64,000 nt of DNA from Carallia brachiata. Lineage: Eukaryota; Streptophyta; Magnoliopsida; Malpighiales; Rhizophoraceae. The notes beneath the pieces are model-generated. The model made no database searches. It was not told where the DNA came from and saw nothing but the letters and a program-made list of their open reading frames with translations. Location of the stretch: positions 3,574,449 through 3,638,448 of the forward strand of contig JADCRB010000005.1 in assembly GCA_021464245.1 (NCBI GenBank), read 5' to 3'. Of this stretch, positions 2,683 through 64,000 are shown in pieces. The first letter of the stretch is position 1, and the number at the start of each line of letters is the position of its first letter. A program made the position numbers and the translations under genes.

Positions 2683-3090
2683 AAAAAAAAAAAAAAAAAA
2701 AAAAATCAAAAAAATCAAAAAAAAAATCAAAAAAAAAAAAAAAAAAGTTGCGAAGTCCCGATCTGAAAACCAAGCGAAAATCCAAACCCAAACACTTGAG
2801 CCCAATTCAGAGTCCAACTCAAAAGCCTGAAAAACAAATCCAAAAATCCAAGTCTAGAAGCCCAAACACTCGACCCAAAACCAATCCAAAGCCCAAAACC
2901 CAAAAAAATTTCAAGTTCCAGACACAATCCAAACCCAAGTTCAAAATCCAATCCAACTCCTGGCCCGCATGAGTATAAACTGTGAACGGCCCAAAAATAT
3001 AAAAGACGGAGGGTTTGATTCTGAAACTCAGCATCAGTCTCAACCGATCTTCACCACATACCAAGACCTTTGCTCCTTGCCGCAAGAAAG
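2641..3090 (+). other. A-tract and low-complexity spacer of the Gypsy element
   Basis: About 105 bp of almost pure A (2641-2747) follows the integrase. Then 2750-2960 is a CCAAAA/CCCAAA-rich low-complexity stretch that would translate as Lys/Pro/Gln-rich sequence in any frame. No protein domain is visible. The long internal A-tract directly 5' of the homeobox ORF could be a slippage expansion or a trace of reverse transcription. The sequence alone does not decide. Confidence 0.6.
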
Positions 3091-3716
3091 ATGGAACCAG
3101 TTGCAGAACCTCAAGACAAGGGAGAAGAAAGGTCACCTCGCACAAGGTGGCAACCGACCATGGCACAACTGCAAATTTTGGAGGAAGTCTTCTACAACGA
3201 TGGAGGTATTGTCCCTAACTCTACACAGATTCTCCAACTTGTCTCACGACTTCGCCCGCTAGGGGCAGTCGAAGGAAAAAATGTATATTTTTGGTTCCAG
3301 AATCGGAGACATAGGGAAACAGTGGCGCTGAGAGATGGTATTTCCAAAGCACAGCCTGTTGTTCCTATAGTAGATCTCACCAGTACAGCTTCACCCTCAA
3401 ATGAAGCCGGCCCAAGTTCTACCACTGCAATGGTCTCTCCACGGTACGTTCATCAAAGCCGTAGCCTATGGGAGCATACATACTGGTCTGGTGGTTTCAC
3501 GGAGTCAGCCAAGGGTTCATCCCTCCTAGATACTTAAGTCTAGGAGGAATTTTTCTAGCACACAGGAGTCATTCCGGCGAAATTTTGCCTCTCTTTCCAG
3601 AATATTCCGGCAGCATCAACCAGCCGGAAAGCGACGTCAACATCATCGGCCCACCAGACGAGGTCGAGCTTGACTTGGAGCTGCCTCGGGCCCCGCTAGG
3701 ACGGCCGACAAGATAA
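3091..3716 (+). pseudogene. WUSCHEL/WOX-like homeobox ORF carried by the Gypsy element
   Basis: From the ATG at 3091 a frame open to 3537 encodes a homeodomain at residues about 17-77 (nt 3139-3321). The helix-1 start is TRWQPT, and the recognition helix is GKNVYFWFQNRRHRE. The GKNV-WFQN form and the spacing fit plant WOX proteins of the WUS clade and differ from HD-Zip or KNOX. A second frame then carries ILPLFPE (nt 3582-3602), matching the WUS-box pattern, and ELDLELP (nt 3666-3686), an EAR-type LxLxL repressor motif. So the order homeodomain, WUS-box, EAR is kept, but with a frame change between 3430 and 3579. A 9-bp inverted repeat (3522-3530/3539-3547) sits in that interval. No intron interrupts the homeobox. 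In WUS proteins these parts bind DNA and recruit TOPLESS-type corepressors; whether this copy is translated is unknown. It lies in the same orientation as pol, between integrase and the polypurine tract. Confidence 0.85.
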
Positions 3717-3720
3717 GGTG

Positions 3721-3830
3721 CAACGACTTCTGCAACGACTTCTGCCAGCACGCGGCAACGACTTCCGCAGCACACGGCAACGACTTCTGCCACACACGGT
3801 AACGACTTTCGTGACACGCGTCAGCCGCTG
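3721..3830 (+). repeat. 22-23 bp minisatellite in the Gypsy 3' region
   Basis: The core AACGACTTCYGC recurs at 3721, 3733, 3756, 3778 and 3800. After a first 12-bp partial unit the periods are 23, 22 and 22 bp, with CAGCACGCGG-like spacers. About four and a half units lie immediately after the EAR-like motif of the homeobox ORF. Confidence 0.8.
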
Positions 3831-4649
3831 CCTCTTTTGTCTCTTATGCAGGAAAGGGACGTGGATGACCCTACCCGATTCTGCATACCTTTTTTGACTT
3901 TTCAAAAAAAAAAAAAAAAAAAAAACTCTTTATTATTTGTATATATATCCTGCATGCCCGAGTTGTAATATTCACCCCTCAGCTCTTCTTTCTCAAAAGA
4001 AAATGGCTAGTCTCTGCACTTGTCTCAGGAAGTTCTTCGATCAAGAAGTTGGAGGCGCACGAGCTAAGAAAAGAAGGAGTAGTCTTCTTCGAGGGATCCC
4101 TAAAAGCCCTCGAAACTCAGTCTCCAACGCCATCGGTTGTCATGGAGTTCCAACTCTCCTTAGTTCACATCTACCACAGAGGGATGAGAAGCTGCAATTA
4201 TCCTAATCTTTCTTTGGATGCAGCGACGTACAGGGAAGTTCCAACTACTCTCCTTACGTCGAAGCAGACTTGGAAATCATCACTACAGTCAGTCTCTCTG
4301 TGAGCCGGTCTTGAAGTTCCAAGGTCCTGAGCCTTTCTTGGGGAGGTTGAAGTTCTTTGCCTACTGGATCATCCTCACCAGAGCTCTGGAACTTTAAGAG
4401 ATATAAAAAATCCTTTGCGGGCTATGGAAGCTCGAATGCACCTGGAGCCAAGACTTTAATTTCTATATTGGCTGGGCTGCTAACTTCTTCAAGATCATAT
4501 CGGTTTCCTATTGCGATCCAACAACAGCGGAGATGGTCAAAGATAGAAGACTCCAAGATTCAATGTTCATCAGGACTTTCCAAATTTCAAACTGGACTTC
4601 AAGACTCGGTTCGAATTATCTCTGTAAAAATCTTTCTTACCGACCCTTG
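3831..4649 (+). other. Gypsy 3' region with unrecognised short ORFs
   Basis: After a short A-tract (3904-3924) there is a TATATATAT at about 3940, a pyrimidine-rich leader and an ATG in good context (AAAATGGC, ATG at 4003). That ORF runs to 4206 and is rich in Ser, Arg and Lys. An overlapping frame from 4049 to 4303 has VVFFEGSLKALE and MEFQLSLVHIYHRG. I recognise no family. The arrangement of TATA, leader and ATG could be an internal promoter and a second captured gene piece, or chance. It ends at the polypurine tract. Confidence 0.35.
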
Positions 4650-4662
4650 AAGTGGGGGCATT
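4650..4662 (+). promoter_or_regulatory. Polypurine tract (plus-strand primer)
   Basis: The purine-rich AAGTGGGGGCATT lies directly before the TG that opens the LTR. A G-rich tract at this position is the usual plus-strand priming site of LTR retrotransposons. Confidence 0.85.
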
Positions 4663-5377
4663 TGTAAACAAATAACTTTTTTTTTTAAAAAAAATAAATA
4701 AATAAAAAAAAAAAAAAAAAAAGTCATTGGCCGCCAACCTTGAAGTCAAGGTTGGCAGCCAACCTTTAAAAGCCACCAACCAATTGGTTGGTGGCAGGCA
4801 GGTGGGGGAGGCCTATAAATGGCCTCCCCCCAAATCAATTGAAGCAGAGAAGAAAAAGGAAAAAAAAAAAGAAAGAAGAAAAGAAGGCAGCCAGCAGCAG
4901 GCGAAAAAAAAAAAAAAAAAAGCAAGCGGAAGAAAAAAGAAAAAAAGAAAAAAAAAAAGAAGAGAGAGATAGTATAAAAAAAAAAAAAAAATCAAAATAC
5001 CACAAATCCGGCTGAGATTAAGCCTCATACGGCCCTCAGCAAAATCCAGGCAACTCATCCGAGAACAAGTCTCTTCGACTCTCGGTGAAATTAAGTCAGA
5101 TCGGCTCAGATCAGCTCTCTGTGGTTCGTAAACGTAGTCAAAAATATCCAAATCAGATACAGTTTCAGTCTATCCAGTTCAAGAAAAAGCGGTGGAAATT
5201 ATTTCTGTCCAGATCAAGCTCATGCAGCCCTTGACGGAGTCAAAAAAAGGAACACTAATCGGAGGATCTACGGAGATCGACCCCACGTAAATTTTCTTTT
5301 CTTTTACAATTTTTATTTGTAATTTATTTTTGTATTTTTGAGTTTAATTGTTTTAGGCTCGAAATTTACGCTTTACA
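4663..5377 (+). repeat. 3' LTR of the Gypsy element (715 bp)
   Basis: It starts TGTAAAC after the polypurine tract and ends GCTTTACA, so TGTAAA and TTTACA form a perfect 6-bp terminal inverted repeat. The 3' boundary is confirmed by an inverted copy at 56103-56224, which also stops exactly at the reverse complement of GCTTTACA. The LTR holds an A-tract, a stack of inverted repeats with the TATA box (4733-4830), A-rich transcribed sequence and a T-rich tail. Confidence 0.88.
4733..4830 (+). promoter_or_regulatory. U3 promoter with three stacked inverted repeats and TATA box
   Basis: There are three perfect inverted repeats in about 100 bp. The first is 4733-4756, with 11-bp arms and 2-bp spacer AG. 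The second is 4772-4795, a 24-bp spacer-less palindrome centred on CCAATTGG. The third is 4804-4830, with arms GGGGGAGGCC and GGCCTCCCCC around the 7-base loop TATAAAT. The TATA box at 4814-4820 is therefore the loop of the last hairpin. Transcription would start roughly 30 bp downstream, near 4845. Confidence 0.8.
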
Positions 5378-5475
5378 CCACGTAAATTTTATTTTATTTT
5401 AAAATTTTTATCTATAATTTATAATTTGTATTTTTGAATCTAACTATTACAAGTTTGAGATTTACGTCCGTTACA
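5378..5475 (+). repeat. Diverged duplicate of the LTR 3' terminus
   Basis: These 98 bp resemble the last 95 bp of the LTR (5283-5377). Both start CCACGTAAATTTT, both have T-rich middles, and both end with a ...TTTACG...TTACA pattern. Either the element inserted into a related older LTR with CCACG as a 5-bp target duplication, or the LTR end was tandemly duplicated. The 5' flank needed to decide is outside the window. Confidence 0.7.
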
Positions 5476-9439: not shown

Positions 9440-10912
9440 GTCGTACTCTAAAATAGGTAGGTATGAGCTAAGTTTTTGTAGTAGTGACGACGCCGTTGAG
9501 AAGACAATCAGAAGATCACAAAGAATGGCCAAAAGAAACTCTTGATTCCCATTTGTTTTAGTTGCATATGGTCAGTGTGGGGATGATACCATATGTTTAT
9601 GAAGGATTCGATCCTAATGCATATAGGCTCTTTACTAAAGTGGGCTATGACTTCTCAAACCCCAAATACAATGGGTACGCTTCCAACTGAGTACATGCAG
9701 GGCGTTCAATCATCGAAGTTCTGACCCGGCTTAGGCTATCAAGAGAAGTCACCTGTACAGATCACGCGCTGAAAAGCCGTAACCAAGTAGTTGATACACG
9801 TGTCATCAACGTCATCACTAAGCAAGAGAGGTCCGTCCAGTCAAATGAAGATGAGAAAATCAAAGCCTCTACATTCCATGTCACGGTTAGTGAAGAGTCT
9901 AAATTTGACTCATTAGACGGTTGAAGTAAAAAGGCTCTTCAGAACTCAAAGATGGTAGACAAGCCACCGTTGATGAACTCAAGGAAGTCAATCTCCATTC
10001 TCTAGAAGATCCTCGACCTACATTTGTGAGTGCCTTACTCACGCCTGAAGAAGAACAGGAATATGTCTGAGTATTAAGTCAATACAGGGACGTATTCGTA
10101 AGGAACTACAAAGAAATGCTTGGACACGATCCAAAGATCGCGGTCCACCACCTAGCAGTAAGAAGAGTATCCATCCAATTAAGCACCATAATGACAGTTT
10201 CGCCTTGAGCTTATTCCACAAATTGAGGAAGATATCAACAAGCTTATCAATGCTGACTTCATCTGAGAGGTCACCTATCCAACCTGGAGAGCAAATATAG
10301 TCCCAGTGAAAAGAAGAATGGGCAGCTAAAAGTTTGTGTCGACTTCAGGACCTTAATCAGACCTGCCCAAAAGATGACTTTCTGTTGCCCATAATGAAAA
10401 TCATGGCCAACGTGACTACTGACAATGAAGCGTTATCCTTTATGGATGGCTCTTTAGTTTATAATCAAATCAGAATGACAACAGAAGATGAGGAATTGAT
10501 GGCATTCTTGACTCCAAAAGAATATACTGCTACAAAGTTGTGCCATGCAAAAGATTTTTTACAACATGTCTACAAGATCATAGAATGCTATGTTGACTTG
10601 GTGGTAAAGACTAAGGAGCGCAAAGATCATCTGGAGGATCTCAAGACTGTGTTTGAAAGACTTTGCAGGCATCAGCTCAAGATAAACTCTAACAAGTGCA
10701 CATTCGGTGTCGCATCAAGGTTCCTTAGATTTGTGATTCGTCATCGTGGTATTTAAGTTAACTAATCAAACGTTGAGGCAATTAAAAAAAATGCTTGAAC
10801 CTAAAAAATCTCTATGAGCCGAAAAGTCTACAAGGGAAGCTGGCCTACATTCATCGTTTCATTTCTAACTTAGTTAGGAGGTGTTAACCTTTCTATCGGT
10901 TGATGAAGAAGG
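9440..10912 (+). pseudogene. Decayed Ty3/Gypsy (Tat-like) pol fragment
   Basis: The 10561-10900 part parallels nt 1-350 of the first element, with the same order of CYVD-LVVKTK, KDHLEDLKTVFERL and FGVAS. One Asp codon of the YVDD box is lost (reads CYVDLVV). Upstream at 10334-10560 there is more RT (PKDDFLLP, NQIRM), and before that pre-RT polyprotein remnants near 9570-9690 (FDPNAYRLFTKVGYDFS). Several stops and frame changes make it dead. It begins within about 20 bp of the hAT right end and stops near the isolated N at 10913. Confidence 0.85.
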
Positions 10913-11177: not shown

Positions 11178-12980
11178 GGGAGAAGTATATTTTAGTCCTA
11201 TACGTTTGTCTTTTTTTTACGCAACTCCATAACGTTAGAGCCGTTTTATTTAAATCCTACACGTTAGCGAGTCATTTTAATCAAGTCCAGATTTGGACGG
11301 AGGGTTATTTGACTGTTAAAATCAGCGTTGACCTCAATTAAAATATTATAAAAAAATAAAAATACGTGATTTAACGTATTAAAATGAAAAAAAATAAAAA
11401 TACACTATTTTCAATAGATATACATAAATATAATTTTAAAAAAATTCAATAAATTTAAAAATAAAAAATAAAAAGTTAAAGAAATTTAGTTGAAAACCTA
11501 GTTACCGTTAAATACTGTTTTAACTACGTTAAAATATTATAAAAAATAGAAATACGTCATTTTAATGTATTAAAGTGAAAAAATAGAAATATGTCATTTT
11601 CACTAAATATACGTAAATATAATTATAAAAAAATTAAAATTTTAATAAACTTAAAAAAAAAAGAAAAAAATTAAAGAAATTCAGATAAAGACCTGATTGA
11701 CTGTTAAATACTGCTTTGACTACATTAAAATATTATAAAAAATAAAAATATATTATTTTAACTTATTAAAATGAATGAAGAAATAAAAATATGTCATTTT
11801 GATTAAATATACGTAAAAATAATTGTAAAAAAATTAAAAAATTAAAATTTCAATAAATTTAAAAACAAAAAAATTTAAAAAAAACCCAAAAGTAATAAAA
11901 GAAAATTATTAATTTTTTAGAAAATATTTTTAAAATTATTAAAAATTAAAAAAATTAAATAAAATATAAAAAAATTAATTTCTCCCATTCTTTCCTCCTT
12001 TCTCTCTCCTCCCTCCTCTCTTTCTCTCTCATCACCTCTCTCTGCTCTCTCGTCCCACTTTCTCCTCCCTCCTCTCTTTCTCTCTCATCACCTCTCTCTA
12101 CTCTCTCGTCCCTCTTTCTCCTCCCTCCTCTCTTTCTCTCTCATCACCTCTCTCTGCTCTCTCCTCGTCTCTCTCTCCTCCATCTCTGTCTTCTCCCTCC
12201 TCCCCCTCTTTTCCTTCCTCCCTTTCTCTCTCCTTGTCATATAAGATCCAATTTTGTGTTCATACGAAGGGGAGAGAGGCGAGGAGAGAGAAAGAGAGGA
12301 GGGAGGAGAGAGAAAGGAATGGAGAAGAGAGAATGAATTTTTTTATTTTTCTTTTATTTTTTTAATTGTTGATAATTTTAAAAATATTTTTAAAAATTAA
12401 TATTTTGTATAAACCAAAATTTATATTTATATTTTTTATTTTTTTTAAATTTAGTGAAATTTTAATTTTTTTTTACAATTTTATTTATGATATTTAATCA
12501 AAATGACATATTTTTATTTTTTTATTCACTTTAATAAGTTAAAATGACATATTTTATTTTTTATTCACTTTAATACATTAAAATGACGTATTTTGATTTT
12601 TTCATAATATTTCACGTAGTCAAAGCAGTAGTAGTATTTAACAGTCAACCAGGTCTCCAACTAATTTTTTTATTTTTTAATTTTTGTTTTTAAATTTATT
12701 GAAATTTTTTTATTTTTTATAATTATATTTACGTATATTTATTCAAAATAGCGTATTTTTATTTTTTATTCACTTTAATACGTTAAAATCAAGTATTTCT
12801 ATTTTTTTATAATATTTTAATACGGTCAATGTTGTATTTAACGGTCAACCAAACGTCCGTCCAAAATTGGACTCGATTAAAATGACTTATTAACGTGTAG
12901 GACTTAAATAAAACGGCTCTAACGTTATGGAGTTGCGTAAAAAAAGGACAAACGTATAGGACTAAAAATATGCTTATCCC
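11178..12980. mobile_element. Mutator-like foldback element, 1.8 kb, with long terminal inverted repeats
   Basis: The ends are GGGAGAAGTATATTTTAG on the left and, in reverse complement, GGGATAAGCATATTTTTAG on the right. The identical 10-bp TATATTTTAT flanks both sides (11168-11177 and 12981-12990); 9-10 bp direct repeats are typical of Mutator-like elements. The inverted arms stay very similar for at least 150 bp (both carry ACGCAACTCCATAACGTTAG) and remain alignable for several hundred more. Each arm has internal AT-rich subrepeats of about 190 bp beginning TTAAAATATTATAAAA (left copies near 11338, 11530 and 11727). The centre is pyrimidine-rich and partly inverted. No transposase frame is present, so it is non-autonomous. 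Confidence 0.85.
12007..12174 (+). repeat. 56-bp pyrimidine-rich tandem repeat, three copies
   Basis: Units start at 12007, 12063 and 12119, each with TCCTCCCTCCTCTC. The period is exactly 56 bp with few substitutions. An inverse purine-rich relative lies at 12270-12335. This is the core of the foldback element. Confidence 0.85.
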
Positions 12981-15743: not shown

Positions 15744-17833
15744 ATGAGATCAAAACTCAAGCTTCGGCAAGCCATTGACTCGCTGTGCGCGCGCGGCCCC
15801 GCGACTCATGAATCCTACACTCGCCTTGTGCTCGAGTGCTTTCGGGCCAACGACCTCGATCAAGCCAAGAGATTACAGTCCCACATGGAGCATTACTTGT
15901 ATCAACCCAACGACACTTTCCTTCAAAATCGCCTCCTCCATTTGTATGCAAAATCTGGGAAAGTCTCCCTTGCTCGGGACTTGTTCGACAAAATGCCCCC
16001 TTAGAGACATTTTCTCGTGGAACGCCATGCTCTCTTTGTATTCCAAATCTGAGTTAATTGAAGATTTGGGAGCTGTTTTTAACAGCATGCCTTTTCGGGA
16101 TTCGGTGTCCTATAATACAGTGATTTCTGGTTATGCAGGGACTGGGTGTGCAAGTAAGGCATTGGAGACCTTTTTGGGAATGCAAAAGGAAGGACTTGAG
16201 CCTACAGAGTATACACTTGTGAGTGTTTTAAATGCTTGTACACAGTTGTTGGACATAAGGGAGAGGAAAGCAGATTCATGGGAGGATTGTTGCTGGAAGG
16301 CTGGGAGTTAATGCGTATATTTGGAATGCTTTAATTGATATGTATGCCAAGTGCGGTGAAATTGATCGGGCTAGATGGTTGTTTGATAGAATGTCAAATA
16401 AGAATGTGGTATCCTGGAATTCATTGATTTCCGGTTACTTGAAAAATGGGCAACCCAAGAAATGCATTGTCCTGTTTCGAGAGATGCAGGTATCTGGTTT
16501 GAAGACTGACCAGGTTACAGTAGCAAATGTACTTGGCGCATATTTTCAAATTGGATATATTGACGAAGCAAGAAAGCTCTTTGATGAGATCAGAGGCAAG
16601 GATAAGGTTTGTTGGACAACGATGATTGTTGGTTGTGCACAGAATGAGATGGAAGAAGACGCTTTGATGTTGTTTGGCAAGATGTTATTAGAGAATGTTA
16701 GACCAGACAGTTATACTATCTCAAGTGTGGTTAGTTCCTGTGCTAAATTAGCTTGTCTGTATCATGGCCAGGCAGTTCATGGGAAAGCTCTTCTACTGGG
16801 AGCTGATGATGATTTACTTGTGTCCAGTGCTCTTGTTGATATGTATTGCAAATGTGGAATCACCGGGGATGCTGTGGCTTTATTCAATATGATGCCTACT
16901 CAGAATGTTGTTTCTTGGAATGCCATGATTGGGGGTTATGCTCAAAATGGGCAGGATTCTGCAGCCTTGTCCCTTTTTGAAAAGATGTTGGAAGAAGATC
17001 TGAAACCAGATGATGTTACCTTCATGGCTGTGCTATCTGCTTGTGCACATTCGGGGTTGGTTGAAGAAGGGAAGAGGTATTTTGACTCAATAGCTGAACA
17101 GCACGGATTGACACCTACTTTGGATCACTATGCATGCATGATCAATCTTCTTGGACGGTCAGGACGTATGGATGAAGCGATTGGCTTACTTACTAGATTG
17201 TCTCAGAAGCCAAATACCATGATATGGTCTACGATTCTCTCTGTTTGTGCAATGAAGGGTGACATCATACATGGGGAGATTGCAGCCAGGCATCTATTTA
17301 CCTTGGATCCACTCAGTGCAGGGCCTTACATCATGCTATCCAACATGTATGCAGCTTGTGGAAGATGGAATGATGTAGCATCTATAAGATCTCTAATGAA
17401 GACTAAGAATGTCAAAAAGTTTGCTGCTTACAGTTGGATTGAGATTGATGGTGAGGTCCACAAATTTGTGGCAGACGATCGAACTCATCCTTGTACCAAA
17501 ATAATTTATGAAGAACTTCACAACTTGATAAGGAAACTGCAGGAAGCTGGCTTTAGTCCTAACACAAATTTAGTTCTACACGATGTTGGGGAGGAGGAGA
17601 AACTTGAATCTATTTGTTACCATAGTGAAAAGCTTGCTCTTGCATTTGCGTTGATTAAAAAGCGTCATCAAGCAGCACCCATAAGGATTATAAAAAACAT
17701 TCGTGTTTGTAAAGACTGTCATATGTTTATGAAACTCGTTTCCAAAATGATTGGAAGGACTGTCATCTTGAGGGATTCAAATAGGTTTCATCATTTTGCT
17801 GGGGGTCAGTGCTCCTGTAGTGACTACTGGTAA
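15744..17833 (+). CDS. PLS-class PPR protein with E and DYW domains (two 1-bp insertions)
   Basis: An organelle RNA-editing factor of the PLS-DYW type, expected in mitochondria or plastids. Tandem PPR motifs run through the protein (for example NALIDMYAKCGEIDRAR, VVSWNSLISGYLKNGQ and VTFMAVLSACAHSGLVEEG). The E region follows and then a complete DYW deaminase domain. The zinc-binding and catalytic HxE motif is HSEKLALAF, the next motif is CKDCH, and the protein ends in CSCSDYW. The ATG at 15744 opens the first segment. The reading frame is broken by an extra C in a C5 run near 15996-16000 and by an extra G near 16260. Removing the two bases leaves 2088 bp, an exact 695-codon frame plus stop. 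No intron is needed, as usual for this family. These are either assembly errors or recent inactivation; the high conservation elsewhere favours the former. Confidence 0.9.
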
Positions 17834-53593: not shown

Positions 53594-54949
53594 AAACTTT
53601 TCTCCCCAAGTGCTTCCAGTAAAGATCAAATCGTTGTGGACAAAAGATGTGCTCCTCTCCTTACTATTTTGGCCAACTTCACTGGTATCCTCTCTCCGTT
53701 TCGAAACGAAGAGTATAGCTGAAAATGTGCATCTCAGGGTCATGCATGACATTTCTTGAATATAGACTGTAATGCCTGTAGCCAAATTTGGATTCAAACT
53801 TGTGAATGTAAAGGGAATTACATCTAACATTCAATGGGCTGCTTCGATTTTCTTGGCTATCTCTTGCAAATAACATTGACTTTTTGTTGCAGTAACCATG
53901 ACATAACGTTAATCTCTCTCTCTCAAGTTATCTTTAAAACCATGAAGACATCAGAATATACATATAATAAATAATAAAATCCACCAATCTCATTAAATAT
54001 TTACTTTGAATGAGACAAAAATATGATCAGAAAACTGTAAGTTGTTCAAAACTGAAACATGCCACCAGCATGCAATAAACAATATCAATATATGACATTA
54101 ATTGTAAGCAGCATGAAATTTTGTTATTCTAACGATAACAATAAACTATTGGCTGCGTCACGATCTTTCAAAACCTACCCCCTTTTTTTTTTTTTTTAGC
54201 AGTTAGGCACGTGGTGGACACGGTATGATTGTTGGATCGAGAAATGTCAAATAATGTGAATGGGCTCAAATGTTACTAGAACTCAAGCTAGCTAATAGAA
54301 AATTTATAATCATTATAAGTTAAATTATAAATTTTATTTTTATTAATATAAGATATTATATTTTTTAATATATTCTTTTAATAAGTATTAGACCTGATTA
54401 GTACGTGACAAAAAAAAACTTTACTAAAATGAGACAAATCCATATCAATGAATAATTTAACGAGTGCAGATTAAAAGAGTATACTAATTTCTGATATTAT
54501 GTCAAATAATATCTATAAGATATAGAAATTATTTGAAAAGAAATATGAATTTAATTGAAAAAAAAATTAATAAATTATTAAATGGTGTTTGATATATCTT
54601 GTACTTTTTGCGTACCCTAAAATGCGTGTGAACATAATGAAACCCATTATAGTATTCTCTACCTTGCCATCGCCACCAAAATTTCTAAGCCTAGAATCTT
54701 ACAATATATGATAGAAAAATAGTCAGTAAAAGCAAGGATGGAAGAGAATAGCGTCAGAATAAAGCTAAATAAACACCCAAACCGGAAAGCAACCATTTTG
54801 GTGGGGTTAGATACACATTAAATGGCCCTGATTGCTTCGATCCCACTTCAACCCTGAAGCATTTGTCCAAAAATAGGACAGAATTTCTAGCAAAATGCTT
54901 GCTGCCAAGGATTAAACTTCTGTGCAAATTTCAAATTGTCTGCTATCCC
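53594..54949. other. Intergenic; ATL upstream region
   Basis: No gene. The promoter of the ATL gene should lie in 54300-54949. No decisive TATA can be assigned. Confidence 0.4.
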
Positions 54950-56060
54950 ATGAATCCGTTAAGATTGCTCTTGCTCATTATACATCCCTTTTTCATGTTC
55001 TTCCATTCTTTGGCTCAGTCTACCTTAGCTCATGGTACAGCAAATTCCCAGGACGCTATCTCAAATTCTCAGCCAAGTCTTGCTGTAATCATAGGGGTTC
55101 TCTGCACGATTTTTTCAGCTACTTTTATCCTCTTATTCTATGCAAAATTCTGCTGCAGTGGATCTTCTGTTCATGGCGATTCACTAAATCGTCCTGGAAT
55201 AGTTCAATCAGCATCGAGGTTCTCTGGAATTGATAAGACAGTGATAGAATTACTCCCTTTATTCAGATTCTCTTCTCTTAAAGGGTCAAGGGAAGGGCTG
55301 GAGTGCGCAGTCTGCTTATCAAAATTCGAAGACACAGAGATTCTGAGGTTGCTGCCTAAATGCAAACATGCCCTTCACATTAACTGTGTGGATCAATGGC
55401 TTGAGAGACACTCTAGCTGCCCTCTTTGCAGGTGCAAGGTGAGCCCTGACGACCCAGCAATCTTCACGTACTCGAACAGTATGCGATCGTTGCAGAATCC
55501 ATCCGAGCTCAGACAGGACTCAGACATAGAGCTATTTGTGAAGAGGGAGGAAACCCATCAAGGCTCTTCAAGATTTAGCGTAGGTGGCAGCTTTCGGAAA
55601 CTTGAAAAGCGTAGCAAGGAAGAAGAATCGTTAATCCGAGAATAAGAAGTTGACTGCAGCAGTGAAAATGGGAAAATCTTAAATAAGTTCAATCACAAGA
55701 TCATTGCCTCCGATGTTGTCTTCAAGAATAGATGGAGCAATGTTAGTTCTGACTTGATGTTCTTGAATTACGAGATGCTTAATGAACTTTCAAGCAACAG
55801 ATTCTCTTCGTTGGATTTGAACAATGGGCAATTCGCCAACGCAAGAGTCATAGAAGATGACCAAATGATGCAAGATCGAGGAAGAAGTGGAGATAAACAG
55901 ATTGTTTGAAAGTAAAAATAGTACAATCATTAGAAATTCTCTAACTTCAGTTCCCAGTCTTCCTTCTACATCAGATTCAAAAGAGAATTCAATTCGTGAC
56001 ATGCTAAAGATTATAAATTCAGCCGAAAGAAGGTCAGTATCTGAAATTGCAGCTTTCTGA
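54950..56060 (+). pseudogene. ATL-type RING-H2 E3 ubiquitin ligase, in-frame stop and 1-bp insertion
   Basis: Membrane-anchored ubiquitin ligase of the ATL family (ATL42/43-like). From the ATG at 54950 there is a signal-like hydrophobic N-terminus (residues 4-22), a transmembrane segment (about 44-66), the GLD-type motif GIDKTVIELLPLF (93-105) and a RING-H2 finger at residues 119-160. All eight ligands are present: C119, C122, C138, H140, H143, C146, C157 and C160, with PKCKHALHINC and DQWL between. At codon 232 (55643-55645) an in-frame TAA appears. Coding-like sequence continues in the same frame (DVVFKNRWSNV, SSNRFSSLDL), then one extra base at about 55871 shifts it, and it ends ERRSVSEIAAF, TGA at 56058-56060. 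Total length is 369 codons once one base is removed. The RING domain precedes both lesions, so a truncated but RING-bearing protein remains possible. Confidence 0.85.
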
Positions 56061-56102: not shown

Positions 56103-56224
56103 TGTAAAGCGTAAATTTCGAGTTTAAAACAATTAAACTCGAAAATACAAAAATAACTTACAAATAAAAATTGTAAAGTAAAAGAAAATTTACGTGGGGT
56201 CGATCTCCGTAGATCCTCCGATTA
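56103..56224 (-). repeat. Gypsy LTR end, inverted, cut by the assembly gap
   Basis: 122 bp that match, in reverse complement, the last part of the LTR at 5261-5377, through CGGAGGATCTACGGAGATCG and ending at GCTTTACA. It lies 43 bp after the ATL stop. The rest of the LTR or element is hidden in the N run. The candidate target duplication on the left is AGCCT (56098-56102). Confidence 0.9.
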
Positions 56225-57127
56225 NNNNNNNNNNNNNNNNNNNNNNNNNNNNNNNNNNNNNNNNNNNNNNNNNNNNNNNNNNNNNNNNNNNNNNNNNNNN
56301 NNNNNNNNNNNNNNNNNNNNNNNNNNNNNNNNNNNNNNNNNNNNNNNNNNNNNNNNNNNNNNNNNNNNNNNNNNNNNNNNNNNNNNNNNNNNNNNNNNNN
56401 NNNNNNNNNNNNNNNNNNNNNNNNNNNNNNNNNNNNNNNNNNNNNNNNNNNNNNNNNNNNNNNNNNNNNNNNNNNNNNNNNNNNNNNNNNNNNNNNNNNN
56501 NNNNNNNNNNNNNNNNNNNNNNNNNNNNNNNNNNNNNNNNNNNNNNNNNNNNNNNNNNNNNNNNNNNNNNNNNNNNNNNNNNNNNNNNNNNNNNNNNNNN
56601 NNNNNNNNNNNNNNNNNNNNNNNNNNNNNNNNNNNNNNNNNNNNNNNNNNNNNNNNNNNNNNNNNNNNNNNNNNNNNNNNNNNNNNNNNNNNNNNNNNNN
56701 NNNNNNNNNNNNNNNNNNNNNNNNNNNNNNNNNNNNNNNNNNNNNNNNNNNNNNNNNNNNNNNNNNNNNNNNNNNNNNNNNNNNNNNNNNNNNNNNNNNN
56801 NNNNNNNNNNNNNNNNNNNNNNNNNNNNNNNNNNNNNNNNNNNNNNNNNNNNNNNNNNNNNNNNNNNNNNNNNNNNNNNNNNNNNNNNNNNNNNNNNNNN
56901 NNNNNNNNNNNNNNNNNNNNNNNNNNNNNNNNNNNNNNNNNNNNNNNNNNNNNNNNNNNNNNNNNNNNNNNNNNNNNNNNNNNNNNNNNNNNNNNNNNNN
57001 NNNNNNNNNNNNNNNNNNNNNNNNNNNNNNNNNNNNNNNNNNNNNNNNNNNNNNNNNNNNNNNNNNNNNNNNNNNNNNNNNNNNNNNNNNNNNNNNNNNN
57101 NNNNNNNNNNNNNNNNNNNNNNNNNNN
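56225..57127. other. Assembly gap, 903 N
   Basis: Undetermined bases. It begins inside an LTR, so an unresolved repeat is the probable cause. Confidence 0.98.
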
Positions 57128-60320: not shown

Positions 60321-62000
60321 TTGAATTTATATTTTGTGATGGTTATTCTCATGGCATTAATGTATGTATATTTCTTGGTTAATGCAGTTATTCCTACTAC
60401 TTTTTATGATCCTTCTCGTATTCCAATGTTGTCGGGTGATAATTTTGTGGACTGGAAAGAAAAGGTCCTTTTGGCTTTAGGGTGCATGGATATGGATTTG
60501 GCCTTCCGTGTGGATGAACCACCTGTTCCCACGGAAACAAGTACGCCAAATGAGAGAGCTGCTTTTGAAAAGTGGGAGCGATCTAATCGCCTGAGTTTGA
60601 TACTCATTAAGTCCCACATCAGCAAAAGCATCAGGGGCTCTATTCCAGATAAAGAAAAGGCCAAAGATTTCATGAAAGCTATTGAAGAACAGTTTGTGAA
60701 ATCTGATAAGGCATTGGCCAGCACCCTTATGAAGAAACTTTCAGGAAAGAACTTTGACAGTTCTAAAAGTGTGTGTGAGCACATTATGGAAATGAGGGAC
60801 ATTGCTTCTCAACTCAAGTCCCTTGAGGTTGATATATCTGATACCTTTCTGGTTCATTTTATCCTGAATTCTCTTCCTCCTGCATATACGCCTTTTAAGA
60901 TATCATATAACACACATAAGGATAAATGGTCAATCAATGAACTTCTGACCATGTGTGTTCAAGAGGAGAAAGGAATGAAGCACGAGAATCTGGAAAGTGC
61001 TCATCTCGTGATTAAAGAGAAGACGAAGGACAAAAAGGGTAAAGGTGCTCCATACTGGAAGAAAGATGCAAATGTGCCAATGAAGAAATATGGCAATAAG
61101 GTAGCATGCTTCTTCTGCAGGAAATGTGGACACATGAAGAAAGATTGCCTTAAATATAAGGTATGGCTGGAAAAGAAAGGTATTCTTATATCTTTAGTGT
61201 GTTATCAATCTCTTTTAGTTGATGCTCCAAATAATACATGGTGGATTGATTCTGGTTCTACAATCCACATTGCCAATACTATGCAGGGCTTTCTGGAGCT
61301 AAGGAAGCCAAAGGAAAGTGAGCAAGGCATCTATTCAGGAAATCAGATGCGTTCTCATGTTGAAGCTGTGGGGATTTATCGTTTAATTTTAAAGACTGGA
61401 TTTGTTTTGGATTTGCAAAATACTTTTTATATTCCTTCGTTCTCTAGGAATTTAGTTTCAATTTCTAGGTTAGGTCAGTTTAATTATCAGTTTGTTTTTG
61501 AGAACAAAAGTTTTAATATTTTGCATAATAAAATTAATGTTGGTTCTGGTCATTTGGTTGATGGTTTATACAAATTCGATTTAGACCCCACTCAGGAATG
61601 CAATGTTACATTGCATGACAGTATTGGCACAAAGAGATGTGTTATTAATGAGCAATCTTCTCAATTATGGCACAAAAGATTATGGCACATCTCTCTTGAG
61701 AGAATAAAGAGGCTTGAGAATGATGAAGTTTTAACAACTCTTGACTTTACAGATTTTGGTACTTGTGTGGATTGCATAAAGGGTAAGCAAACTAACAAGA
61801 ATACTAAAGGTGCTAAAAGAAGTTCAGAAATTCTTGAGATTGTACACACAGATATATGTGGACCATTTCCCACTCCCTGTTTCAATGGTCAGAGATATTT
61901 TATCTCATTCATTGATGACCATACAAGATTCATGTATCTCTACTTATTGTTTGAAAAAGCTGAAGACTTGATGCTTTTAAAACATATAAGGTTGAAGTAG
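60321..62000 (+). CDS. Copia gag-protease-integrase (5' part of polyprotein)
   Basis: An open frame of 559 codons. It starts with gag (DPSRIPMLSGDNFVDWKEKV, LIKSHISKSIRGSI, FVKSDKALASTLMKKLSGKN). The zinc knuckle is CFFCRKCGHMKKDC (C-x2-C-x4-H-x4-C). The protease motif is WWIDSGSTIHIA, with its active-site Asp. A GAG-pre-integrase segment follows with LWHKRLWHISLERI and CVDCIKGKQ, the H-H-C-C zinc site. The integrase core begins VHTDICGPFP. The first 30 codons are hydrophobic and may not be translated; the ATG at 60426 (MLSGDNF) is another possible start. A one-base shift at about 61968 ends the frame. In a live element the product would assemble particles, mature the polyprotein and insert cDNA. 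Confidence 0.9.
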   Translation: MNLYFVMVILMALMYVYFLVNAVIPTTFYDPSRIPMLSGDNFVDWKEKVLLALGCMDMDLAFRVDEPPVPTETSTPNERAAFEKWERSNRLSLILIKSHISKSIRGSIPDKEKAKDFMKAIEEQFVKSDKALASTLMKKLSGKNFDSSKSVCEHIMEMRDIASQLKSLEVDISDTFLVHFILNSLPPAYTPFKISYNTHKDKWSINELLTMCVQEEKGMKHENLESAHLVIKEKTKDKKGKGAPYWKKDANVPMKKYGNKVACFFCRKCGHMKKDCLKYKVWLEKKGILISLVCYQSLLVDAPNNTWWIDSGSTIHIANTMQGFLELRKPKESEQGIYSGNQMRSHVEAVGIYRLILKTGFVLDLQNTFYIPSFSRNLVSISRLGQFNYQFVFENKSFNILHNKINVGSGHLVDGLYKFDLDPTQECNVTLHDSIGTKRCVINEQSSQLWHKRLWHISLERIKRLENDEVLTTLDFTDFGTCVDCIKGKQTNKNTKGAKRSSEILEIVHTDICGPFPTPCFNGQRYFISFIDDHTRFMYLYLLFEKAEDLMLLKHIRLK

Positions 62001-62730
62001 AGAAACAAAAGGATAAAAGGATCAAAATTGTAAGATCTGACAGGGGTGGAGAATATTATAGAAGGTACACAGAAATGGGACAAATGAAAGGTCCATTTGC
62101 TAAGTTCCTTGAAGAGAGGGTATTATTGCACAGTATACCACTCCGGGTACACCTCAACAAAATGGTGTTGCAGAAAGAAGGAACCGGACACTTATGGACA
62201 TGGTGAGGAGCATAATCAGTAATTCTAGTCTCCCATTAAGTTTATAGAGTGAAGCCTTGAAAACTGCAGTCTATGTCTTAAATAGAGTTCCATCGAAGGC
62301 TGTTCCTAAAACTCCTTTTGAGTTGTGGAATATATGGAAACCCAGTCTAAGACATATGCATGTATGGGGTTGTCCTGCTGAAGTGAGGGTTTATAATCCT
62401 CAATTAAAGAAATTAGATTCAAGGACAACTAGTGGGTTTTTCATAGGCTATGCAGTAAACTCCAAGGGATACAGATTTTATTGTCCTTCAAGCACGCCTA
62501 GAATTGTTGAAGCAAGGAATGCAAAGTTTATTGAGGATCACGAGTTTAGTAGGAGTGGATTTCCTCGATATGTGCAATTTGAGGAAAATAAGGACTCCAC
62601 TGAAAGTTCCTTAAACTCAAGAGGGTTGATTGTTGTTCAAGAACGTTCACACAGTGATATTAATGAACAACAAATTCAAGATCAAGAGCCCAATGCAGTG
62701 CAAGCTAAACGTGGAACCAGTGGCACATGA
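62001..62730 (+). pseudogene. Copia integrase C-terminal part, frameshifted
   Basis: After the shift, the second integrase Asp is in KIVRSDRGGEYY and the Glu in PQQNGVAERRNRTL. A further frame change occurs near 62118. An in-frame TAG (62245-62247) occupies the place of a conserved Trp, between LPLSL and SEALKTAVYVLN. The C-terminal region then reads through HVWGCPAEVRVYNPQ, GFFIGYAVNSKGYRFYCPS and NAKFIEDHEFS to 62730. Confidence 0.85.
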
Positions 62731-64000
62731 ACCACATAATGAAAATCCACAAAATGAAGGGCTAAGGAGATCCTCAAGAGTAAGAAAATCTGCAATTCCT
62801 GATGACTATCTTGTATACTTGCAAGAGACTGATATTGGTCATAAAGATGATCCTTGCACATTTTCACAAGCCATAGAAAATGAAAAATCAGAATTATGGT
62901 ACAATGCCATGAAGAAAGAGATGGAATCTATGGCCAACAATCAAGTTTGGGACCTTGTTGAATTACCAGAAGGAGTCGTAGCCATTGGCTGCAAATGAGT
63001 TTATAAAACCAAAAGAGACTCGTCTGGTAATATTGAGAGATACAAGGCTAGACTTGTAGCCAAAGGTTTTACTCAGAAAGAGGGCATTGACTATTATGAA
63101 ACCTTCTCTCCAGTTTCTAAGAAGGATTCATTCAGGATTATCATGGCTTTAGTAGCTCATTTTGATTTAGAGCTACATCAGATGGATGTGAAAACTGCCT
63201 TCCTGAATGGGGATCTTGAGGAAGAGGTATACATGAGTCAGCCTGAAGGTTTCACTGTTGATGAAAATCACTTGGTATGCAAGCTTAAGAAATCCATATA
63301 TGGGCTCAAGCAAGCCTCCCGACAGTGGTATATAAAATTTCACAATATTATAGTCTCACATGGCTTTAAGGAAAATATTGTGGATCAGTGTATATACCTT
63401 AAGGTTAGTGGGAGCAAGTACATCATTTTAGTCCTATATGTGGATGATATTTTACTTGCATGTAACGATTTGGGGTTGCTACATGAGACAAAGAAATTTC
63501 TCTCTCAGAACTTTGAAATGAAGGATATGGGTGAAGCTTCTTATGTCGTTGGCATAGAAATTCACAGAGATAGATCTCAGCAAGTTTTGGGATTATCTCA
63601 GAAGGCCTACATTGAAAGAGTTTTAGAGAGATTCAGAATGGAAGACTGCTCTTCCACTGTAGCACCTATTGTCAAAGGGGACAAATTCAGTCTTGCACAA
63701 TGTCCTCAAAACAACTTGGAACGGGAAGAGATGAAGCGGATACCATATGCATCAGCAGTTGGTAGCATTATGTATGCACAGGTCTGCACTAGACCTGACA
63801 TTGCATTTGCAGTAGGAATGTTGGGAAGATACCAAAGTAATCCTGGGCTAGAGCACTGGAAAGCTGCTAAGAAGGTTATGAGGTATCTGCAAGGAACCAA
63901 GGACTACAGGCTTACATACAGACACACTGACTGTTTGGAAGTGGTCGGGTATTCGGATGCGGATTTCGCTGGTTGTGTAGACACTAGAAAGTCTACTACT
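62731..64000 (+). pseudogene. Copia reverse transcriptase and RNase H start
   Basis: RT begins LWYNAMKKEMESM and continues [46 protein letters not shown] and the catalytic [11 protein letters not shown]. The connection and RNase H follow, ending at [17 protein letters not shown] at the window edge. A TGA (62996-62998) replaces the Trp codon before VYKTKRD; after it the frame stays open to nt 64000. A frame change near 62700 separates this part from the integrase. Confidence 0.88.

Follow-up and report, generated by a model that had tools for sequence, protein, structure and literature searches.

The left end of the window (the whole 64,000-nucleotide stretch of DNA analysed here) is occupied by a plus-strand Ty3/gypsy retrotransposon of the Tat clade (Ogre/Retand type) that carries a WUSCHEL (WUS)-type gene; WUS maintains the stem cells of plants. 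The element consists, in order, of reverse transcriptase (RT), RNase H (RH), a second, archaeal-type RNase H (aRH), integrase (INT), the WUS-type gene, a polypurine tract and the 3' LTR. A sequence-only reading of the same DNA had proposed that a Gypsy element contains a WUS-type WOX sequence, located between integrase and polypurine tract and including the string GKNVYFWFQN. Pfam, phmmer and an extra homeodomain residue characteristic of WUS bear out the identification, the position is confirmed, and the string is present in the open reading frame (ORF) at 3091–3537. The history that we favour, if with modest confidence, is that a Tat-clade family took up a WUS-type host gene as an extra ORF and kept it under protein selection while it diverged, and that the copy in the window was then inserted and decayed.

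Anatomy and state of the carrier element

The end of the reverse transcriptase and the RNase H form a first part of pol (1–744; Pfam RVT_1, 9.2e-11; RT_RNaseH, 5e-9) that runs off the left edge of the window; gag, protease, PBS and the 5' LTR lie beyond that edge. The aRH (912–1271; RVT_3, 2.2e-25) sits within an ORF at 714–1415, in a frame that differs from that of the first part of pol, and the integrase ORF (1799–2683; rve, 3.3e-8, residues 10–87) occupies the third frame. There is no chromodomain among the Pfam matches up to E = 1 in 1799–2683. The order RT-RH-INT is that of Gypsy elements, and, according to parts of PMC6317226, the Tat elements of angiosperms (Ogre, Retand) are marked by an aRH between RH and INT. 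Since the RVT_3 domain lies between RT/RNaseH and rve, we place the element in the Tat clade. The pol domains are spread over all three frames; pol is therefore broken and this copy is dead, so that the earlier suggestion of a mobile copy does not hold for the one in the window.

An A-rich spacer of 400 bases separates integrase from the ORF of interest. About 85 bases 5' of the ATG is a TATA-like sequence, TATAAAAG (2998–3005), which, as read from the sequence, may be a core promoter, though on weak evidence. The WUS-type gene itself (3091–3716) is followed by a 3' region of ~930 bases that leads to the polypurine tract, GAAGTGGGGG, recognized in the sequence at 4649–4658. The 3' LTR (4663–5377; 715 bp; TGTAAAC...CTTTACA) presumably begins at the TG adjoining the polypurine tract, while its right end is set by another insertion from this family: an LTR end on the minus strand (56103–56224) that is 95% identical over 122 bp and ends at the same base. 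The window holds no second copy of the ORF below E = 5 by tblastn.

Two further features were seen along the element. Firstly, a short array of tandem CAACGACTTCTGC-like units, found by eye, lies directly 3' of the captured gene (3717–3830). Secondly, the final ~95 bases of the LTR recur in diverged form directly 3' of the 3' LTR (5378–5475), this second copy ending in TTACA; it is either a tandem duplication of the LTR end or the mark of an insertion into an older relative.

Feedback of the encoded protein on its own LTR was considered and rejected: the LTR shows no excess of TGAA (five observed, 10.3 expected), TAAT, TTAATGG, G-box, TGAATGAA, TGATTGA-like or paired TGAA sites, TTAATGG and TGATTGA being motifs that we take to be WUS-type sites. 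Across the LTR, 3' region and spacer, no WUS-type motif was found in excess (21 counts, lowest P 0.22).

A WUS-type homeodomain

The plus-strand ORF at 3091–3537 (148 aa) encodes a homeodomain at 3136–3333 (Pfam PF00046; 38.1 bits, cutoff 22.9; 1.4e-9). In a phmmer search of the PDB, the top match of the ORF is Arabidopsis WUS (62.9 bits, 3.1e-16), followed by Medicago STENOFOLIA (55.6 bits, 5.8e-14); these are the only matches below 0.1, the sole other match listed standing at 0.26. The ORF aligns with WUS without gaps, while the alignment with STENOFOLIA takes one gap, because the ORF has an extra residue that is present in WUS and absent from other WOX homeodomains (as described in a portion of PMC5471313). 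The ORF shares this residue, which belongs to a homeodomain of 66 aa, with 90 of the 119 homeodomains that were fetched; the residue is lacking in the other 29 and in all eight non-WUS homeodomains that were added to the comparison. At the gap column the ORF has F beside Y, where WUS has YY.

Structure prediction agrees with the sequence matches. With a 41-row alignment as input, AlphaFold2 predicts a three-helix domain confidently (residues 21–70, block pLDDT 93–96), and the top Foldseek matches of this model are crystal structures of the WUS homeodomain: the 11 matches at E ≤ 0.001 comprise nine WUS chains and two of STENOFOLIA, a likeness that is partly built in, as the alignment includes WUS proteins. 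Folded as a single sequence, the ORF gives a poor model (mean pLDDT 44). Pfam, PDB sequence and Foldseek matches thus all identify a homeodomain of the WOX type.

The residue pattern resembles that of Arabidopsis WUS (PDB 6ry3, 6ryd) in its 66-residue homeodomain and base-reading residues, and in the WUS-box and EAR motif discussed below. According to sections of PMC7203112, R38, Q89, N90 and R94 of WUS read bases, W39 docks and Y54 forms a pi-bulge; all six are kept by the ORF. Differences from WUS are extensive, with 30 of 66 homeodomain positions identical and, in the recognition helix, the changes F85Y, Y86F, H91R, K92R and A93H. Eight positions conserved in the WUS clade are lost, and because five of the eight sit in the recognition helix, the DNA targets may have changed. 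The helix reads NRRHR rather than NHKAR; NRR is found in canonical homeodomains and in WOX11/WOX13.

The recognition helix is one reason to ask whether the homeodomain belongs to another class and resembles WUS through chance motifs, and a tree drawn without non-WOX rows leaves room for that reading. We nonetheless give it hardly any credence, in view of the extra WUS residue, the EGKNV string, a WUS-box and EAR motif in the right order, and the fact that only WUS and STENOFOLIA appear below 0.1 in the PDB search and at E ≤ 0.001 in Foldseek. The tree in question (29 rows, all WOX homeodomains and eight of them added to the fetched ones, so that placement outside WOX is impossible) puts the ORF on the WUS-clade side with support of 89/79, under the 95 mark for ultrafast bootstrap. 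Its nearest rows by path are WUS, and no supported node unites it with WUS. The tree proposed in the sequence-only reading is hence answered in part: placement on the WUS-clade side within WOX was obtained, while the question of a position outside WOX is not one that WOX rows can address. Because the tree held WOX rows alone, the WOX identity of the ORF rests on phmmer and Foldseek.

Relatives of the ORF were also sought more widely. As a lone query it returned 15 candidates, limited to ~0.55–1.75 times its length, with none at E ≤ 0.001. In viral contigs, two pattern stretches for the ORF and 17 from alignment A2 yielded no confirmed relative, and no stretch was obtained for the integrase; the second RNase H has two distant loci there (L001, 37%; L002, 32%).

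WUS-box and EAR motif in a second frame

A second plus-strand frame (3468–3716), open between stops at 3462 and 3714, contains a WUS-box, EILPLFP (3579–3599), and, in the same frame, an EAR motif, LDLEL (3669–3683). The arrangement is that of the WUS clade, with a TL-LFP-type WUS-box C-terminal of the homeodomain (albeit in the other frame) and an LxLxL motif near the C-terminal end. The box matches ETLPLFP at six of seven positions (T to I); ETLPLFP is the commonest form among 98 fetched WOX proteins of at least 180 aa (44 of 98, the pattern being unmatched in seven). A match of this quality arose in four of 20,000 first-order Markov sequences of 3326–3716, and EILPLFP is the sole six-of-seven match across all six frames of the window. 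Of the 98 proteins, 89 have LxLxL among their final 40 residues. The Pfam EAR model gives a sub-threshold match (12.8 bits, cutoff 28.9) at a position other than LDLEL.

The presence of both motifs in WUS order, as claimed from the letters, therefore stands; their place in one open frame with the homeodomain does not, since the homeodomain frame stops at 3535 and the motifs lie in a different one. Judging by the sequence, the two frames could be joined (i) by an intron or (ii) by one frameshift within their overlap (3465–3534). A candidate phase-2 GT-AG intron of 122 bp, GTACGT...CACACAG, lies at 3444–3565. Its donor has seven of nine letters, GT counted, of the plant splice-donor consensus, a score equalled by 2.5% of the 3088 GTs in the window. 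Since 29 GT-AG pairs, this one among them, restore an open frame, no intron is demonstrated, and one frameshift explains the switch of frame equally well, because frame breaks also occur in the pol of this copy. Joining via 3444–3565 would give 167 residues, with 52 (by hand count) from homeodomain to box, near the low end of the range in fetched WOX proteins (44–238, median 143.5), and 38 (likewise counted by hand) from box to end (range 21–161). Ogre elements splice an intron that is located elsewhere in the element (PMC6317226, in part), and the positions of introns in WUS genes were not found in the available portions of PMC5471313, PMC6482515, PMC4938654 and PMC3913392. The suggestion of the sequence-only reading that an uninterrupted homeobox points to capture through RNA is not supported: it depends on where the introns of the donor gene lie, and an intron may be present 3' of the homeodomain.

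Divergence with conserved positions spared

The gene is strongly diverged. Local identity is at most 49% to each of the best 120 of 3483 WOX proteins, and the ORF's terminal branch in the tree measures 7.45, against 0–0.11 for the 16 WUS rows. The changes are not spread evenly. Among the 20 positions that are constant in at least 99% of rows (119 fetched and eight added), 17 are kept; the other three show the changes I to L, F to Y and Y to F. Conserved positions are kept more often than variable ones in the fetched rows (21 of 32 versus 9 of 34, p = 0.0027), in the 90 WUS rows (23 of 38 versus 7 of 28, p = 0.0059) and with five further rows added (20 of 28 versus 10 of 38, p = 0.0004).

Neutral decay of WUS to the same identity was simulated with random codons and no indels, and hence roughly. 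The sequence stayed free of stops in 8.7% of runs and kept at least 20 of 32 conserved positions in 0.7%; both outcomes coincided in one run of 3000. Because conserved sites were spared, and because neutral decay matched this pattern only once in 3000, much of the divergence appears to have accumulated under protein constraint. The pattern, which comes from one ORF copy, thus points to protein-level selection on the homeodomain, either after capture, within the element, or before it, in an unusual gene of the host.

The second of these settings is the basis of a simpler account, passive transduplication, in which a diverged host WOX gene is a mere passenger and the constraint reflects the host gene's own past. 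It is quite possible, if on balance rather unlikely. WOX genes amplified between identical LTRs in Vigna provide a precedent (a section of PMC10714607), and the broken frame of the window copy and the LTR's lack of enrichment for WUS sites are both in keeping with a passenger. Set against it are the identity and branch length given above: because none of the best 120 of 3483 WOX proteins exceeds 49% and the branch is long, this account requires a donor gene that is unusual and unlisted among these matches.

A processed WUS pseudogene is an improbable third account. Here a LINE-made retrocopy would have come to lie in the element, having been inserted before or after it, and would have no role in its life cycle. 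An A tract of 22 bases (3904–3925, plus strand), ~190 bases past the stop, may be a relic of a poly(A) tail; A tracts are, however, frequent elsewhere in the element, and 3921–3950 and 2740–3090 have no 8–14-base word in common, as a target duplication would leave. In a copy that had drifted neutrally this far, one would also expect a broken frame or further losses among the core residues, as the simulation above indicates.

The sequence-only reading had further raised the production of small RNAs against host WUS. Transposable elements do feed small-RNA pathways, and this general point is the sole one in favour of the ORF as a silencing source. The longest amino-acid run that it has in common with the 119 fetched homeodomains (of WUS/WOX5 type) or with 120 fetched proteins is five residues, so that 21-nt complementarity to a host WUS gene is not expected; we regard this role as very improbable.

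The surrounding window

A neighbouring host gene is a PPR gene, whose ORF at 16340–17833 is closest to proteins of Erythroxylum, Durio and Dovyalis (77% at best), with legumes at no more than 68% (best 120 of 6089 matches). Because this neighbour is nearer to non-legume proteins, the host is probably a rosid outside the legumes, and the element is probably not one of those of Vigna. The PPR gene is split into two ORFs (15775–16311 and 16340–17833), and may be a pseudogene or contain a sequence error.

Other mobile sequences are present. A related reverse transcriptase fragment (RVT_1; 10334–10912), 81% identical to pol over 347 columns, is the remains of another element, and a Ty1/copia element (gag_2, pre-integrase, RVT_2) at 60321–64000 runs off the right edge. 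The second LTR end lies ~460 bases past a RING-H2 ORF (54863–55645; zf-RING_2) and adjoins a run of 903 N (56225–57127). An AT-rich, imperfect inverted repeat occupies 11190–12967, its longest arms measuring 166 bases and being 84% complementary.

Comparison with described elements

The capture of host genes by Tat-type Gypsy elements is already known, and WOX genes have a precedent in Vigna; the finding is therefore not wholly new in kind. The sole description of WOX inside LTR elements that we found, a meeting report section by Naito (PMC10714607), concerns Vigna marina and V. riukiuensis, where many WOX copies, more than 1000 of them in V. riukiuensis, lie mostly between identical LTRs with target duplications; preprints and supplements, in which a further description may exist, were outside the scope of this search. 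The window element likewise has a WOX gene that is flanked by LTRs in the genome of a plant, and differs, by description only, in that its gene is strongly diverged; the Vigna section gives neither element lineage nor WOX clade. In contrast to a freshly captured gene, the ORF looks shaped by protein-level selection.

Several other elements are comparable in part. With the Ogre/Retand elements described in parts of PMC6317226, the window element has in common the RH-aRH-INT order, an extra ORF and expanded non-coding tracts. The extra-ORF domains named there are the plant mobile domain (57% of Ogre), Transposase_28 (23% of Retand) and Athila ORF-1 (16% of Athila), whereas the window element bears a homeodomain. 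By position its ORF corresponds to the eORF-3'F type of that survey, though it is shorter than the cutoff of 250 codons at which ORFs were counted. A second survey, covering 121 angiosperm genomes (PMC9289625, seen in its main text), reports that plant LTR elements carry 15 additional domains, among which it names plant mobile domain, G-patch, AIR1, DUF1409, YgdH, L26, B3, ArgoL2 and 2-ODD demethylase, the main text dealing with domains in at least five consensuses per species. Among these, a Phalaenopsis Gypsy element with an ALKBH-like RNA demethylase is like the present one in carrying a host-type regulatory gene as a separate ORF; the protein is a different one, and its activity was measured in vitro, where our case is made from sequence. 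The Gypsy elements of Citrus and Populus (the latter only without a copy filter) that carry YgdH, a LONELY GUY-type domain from a cytokinin-regulating family, are likewise similar, although YgdH is an enzyme domain and not a transcription factor.

The term "homeo" is absent from the main texts of PMC6317226 and PMC9289625 (their supplementary domain lists being outside the scope of the search), and "homeo", "WUS" and "WOX" are absent from the text seen of a review of additional ORFs (PMC7264820). The thresholds of the two surveys (at least 250 codons and at least five consensuses, respectively, as given in the parts seen) may have caused a WOX-type ORF to be missed.

Possible role and implications

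Under the favoured history, a Tat-clade Ty3/gypsy family would have acquired a WUS-type host gene as an extra sense ORF 3' of pol, encoding a protein on the WUS plan: a DNA-binding homeodomain followed by WUS-box and EAR corepressor motifs. The captured sequence would have diverged strongly while under protein-level selection, with insertion and decay of the window copy coming later. In an active member, the ORF may have been translated from a transcript that was spliced or that began internally, and its product would have acted as a WUS-like repressor in the cells that transcribe the element. The benefit to the element may have been that cells of the shoot meristem, the forerunners of the germ line, were held in a stem-cell or otherwise permissive state. 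The DNA-reading residues, the corepressor motifs and the TATA-like box at 2998 are compatible with this mechanism; the single copy in hand, and a homeodomain that is out of frame with the WUS-box and EAR motif, count against it. The case comes from a single copy: no other family member, ORF-bearing or ORF-less, came to light, so that the ORF is a feature of this copy and only perhaps of its family.

A stronger version, that a WUSCHEL-derived repressor has long been an accessory gene of a retrotransposon lineage, which uses it to hold shoot stem cells so that its insertions reach the germ line, is one we put forward tentatively, as a doubtful but conceivable extension. The parallel that might then be drawn with the use of captured growth genes by retroviruses is equally tentative.

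To our knowledge, plants set aside no early germ line, so that by acting on shoot stem cells an element would act on inheritance. If the favoured history is true, a WUS-like repressor maintained under constraint by a retrotransposon would offer a direct example of how a mobile element exploits a host stem-cell switch, and its importance would grow should further copies of the family show the ORF under selection. The stronger version, taken with the WOX elements of Vigna and the LONELY GUY-type elements of Citrus and Populus, would mean that captures by Gypsy elements have been directed at the stem-cell niche more than once.
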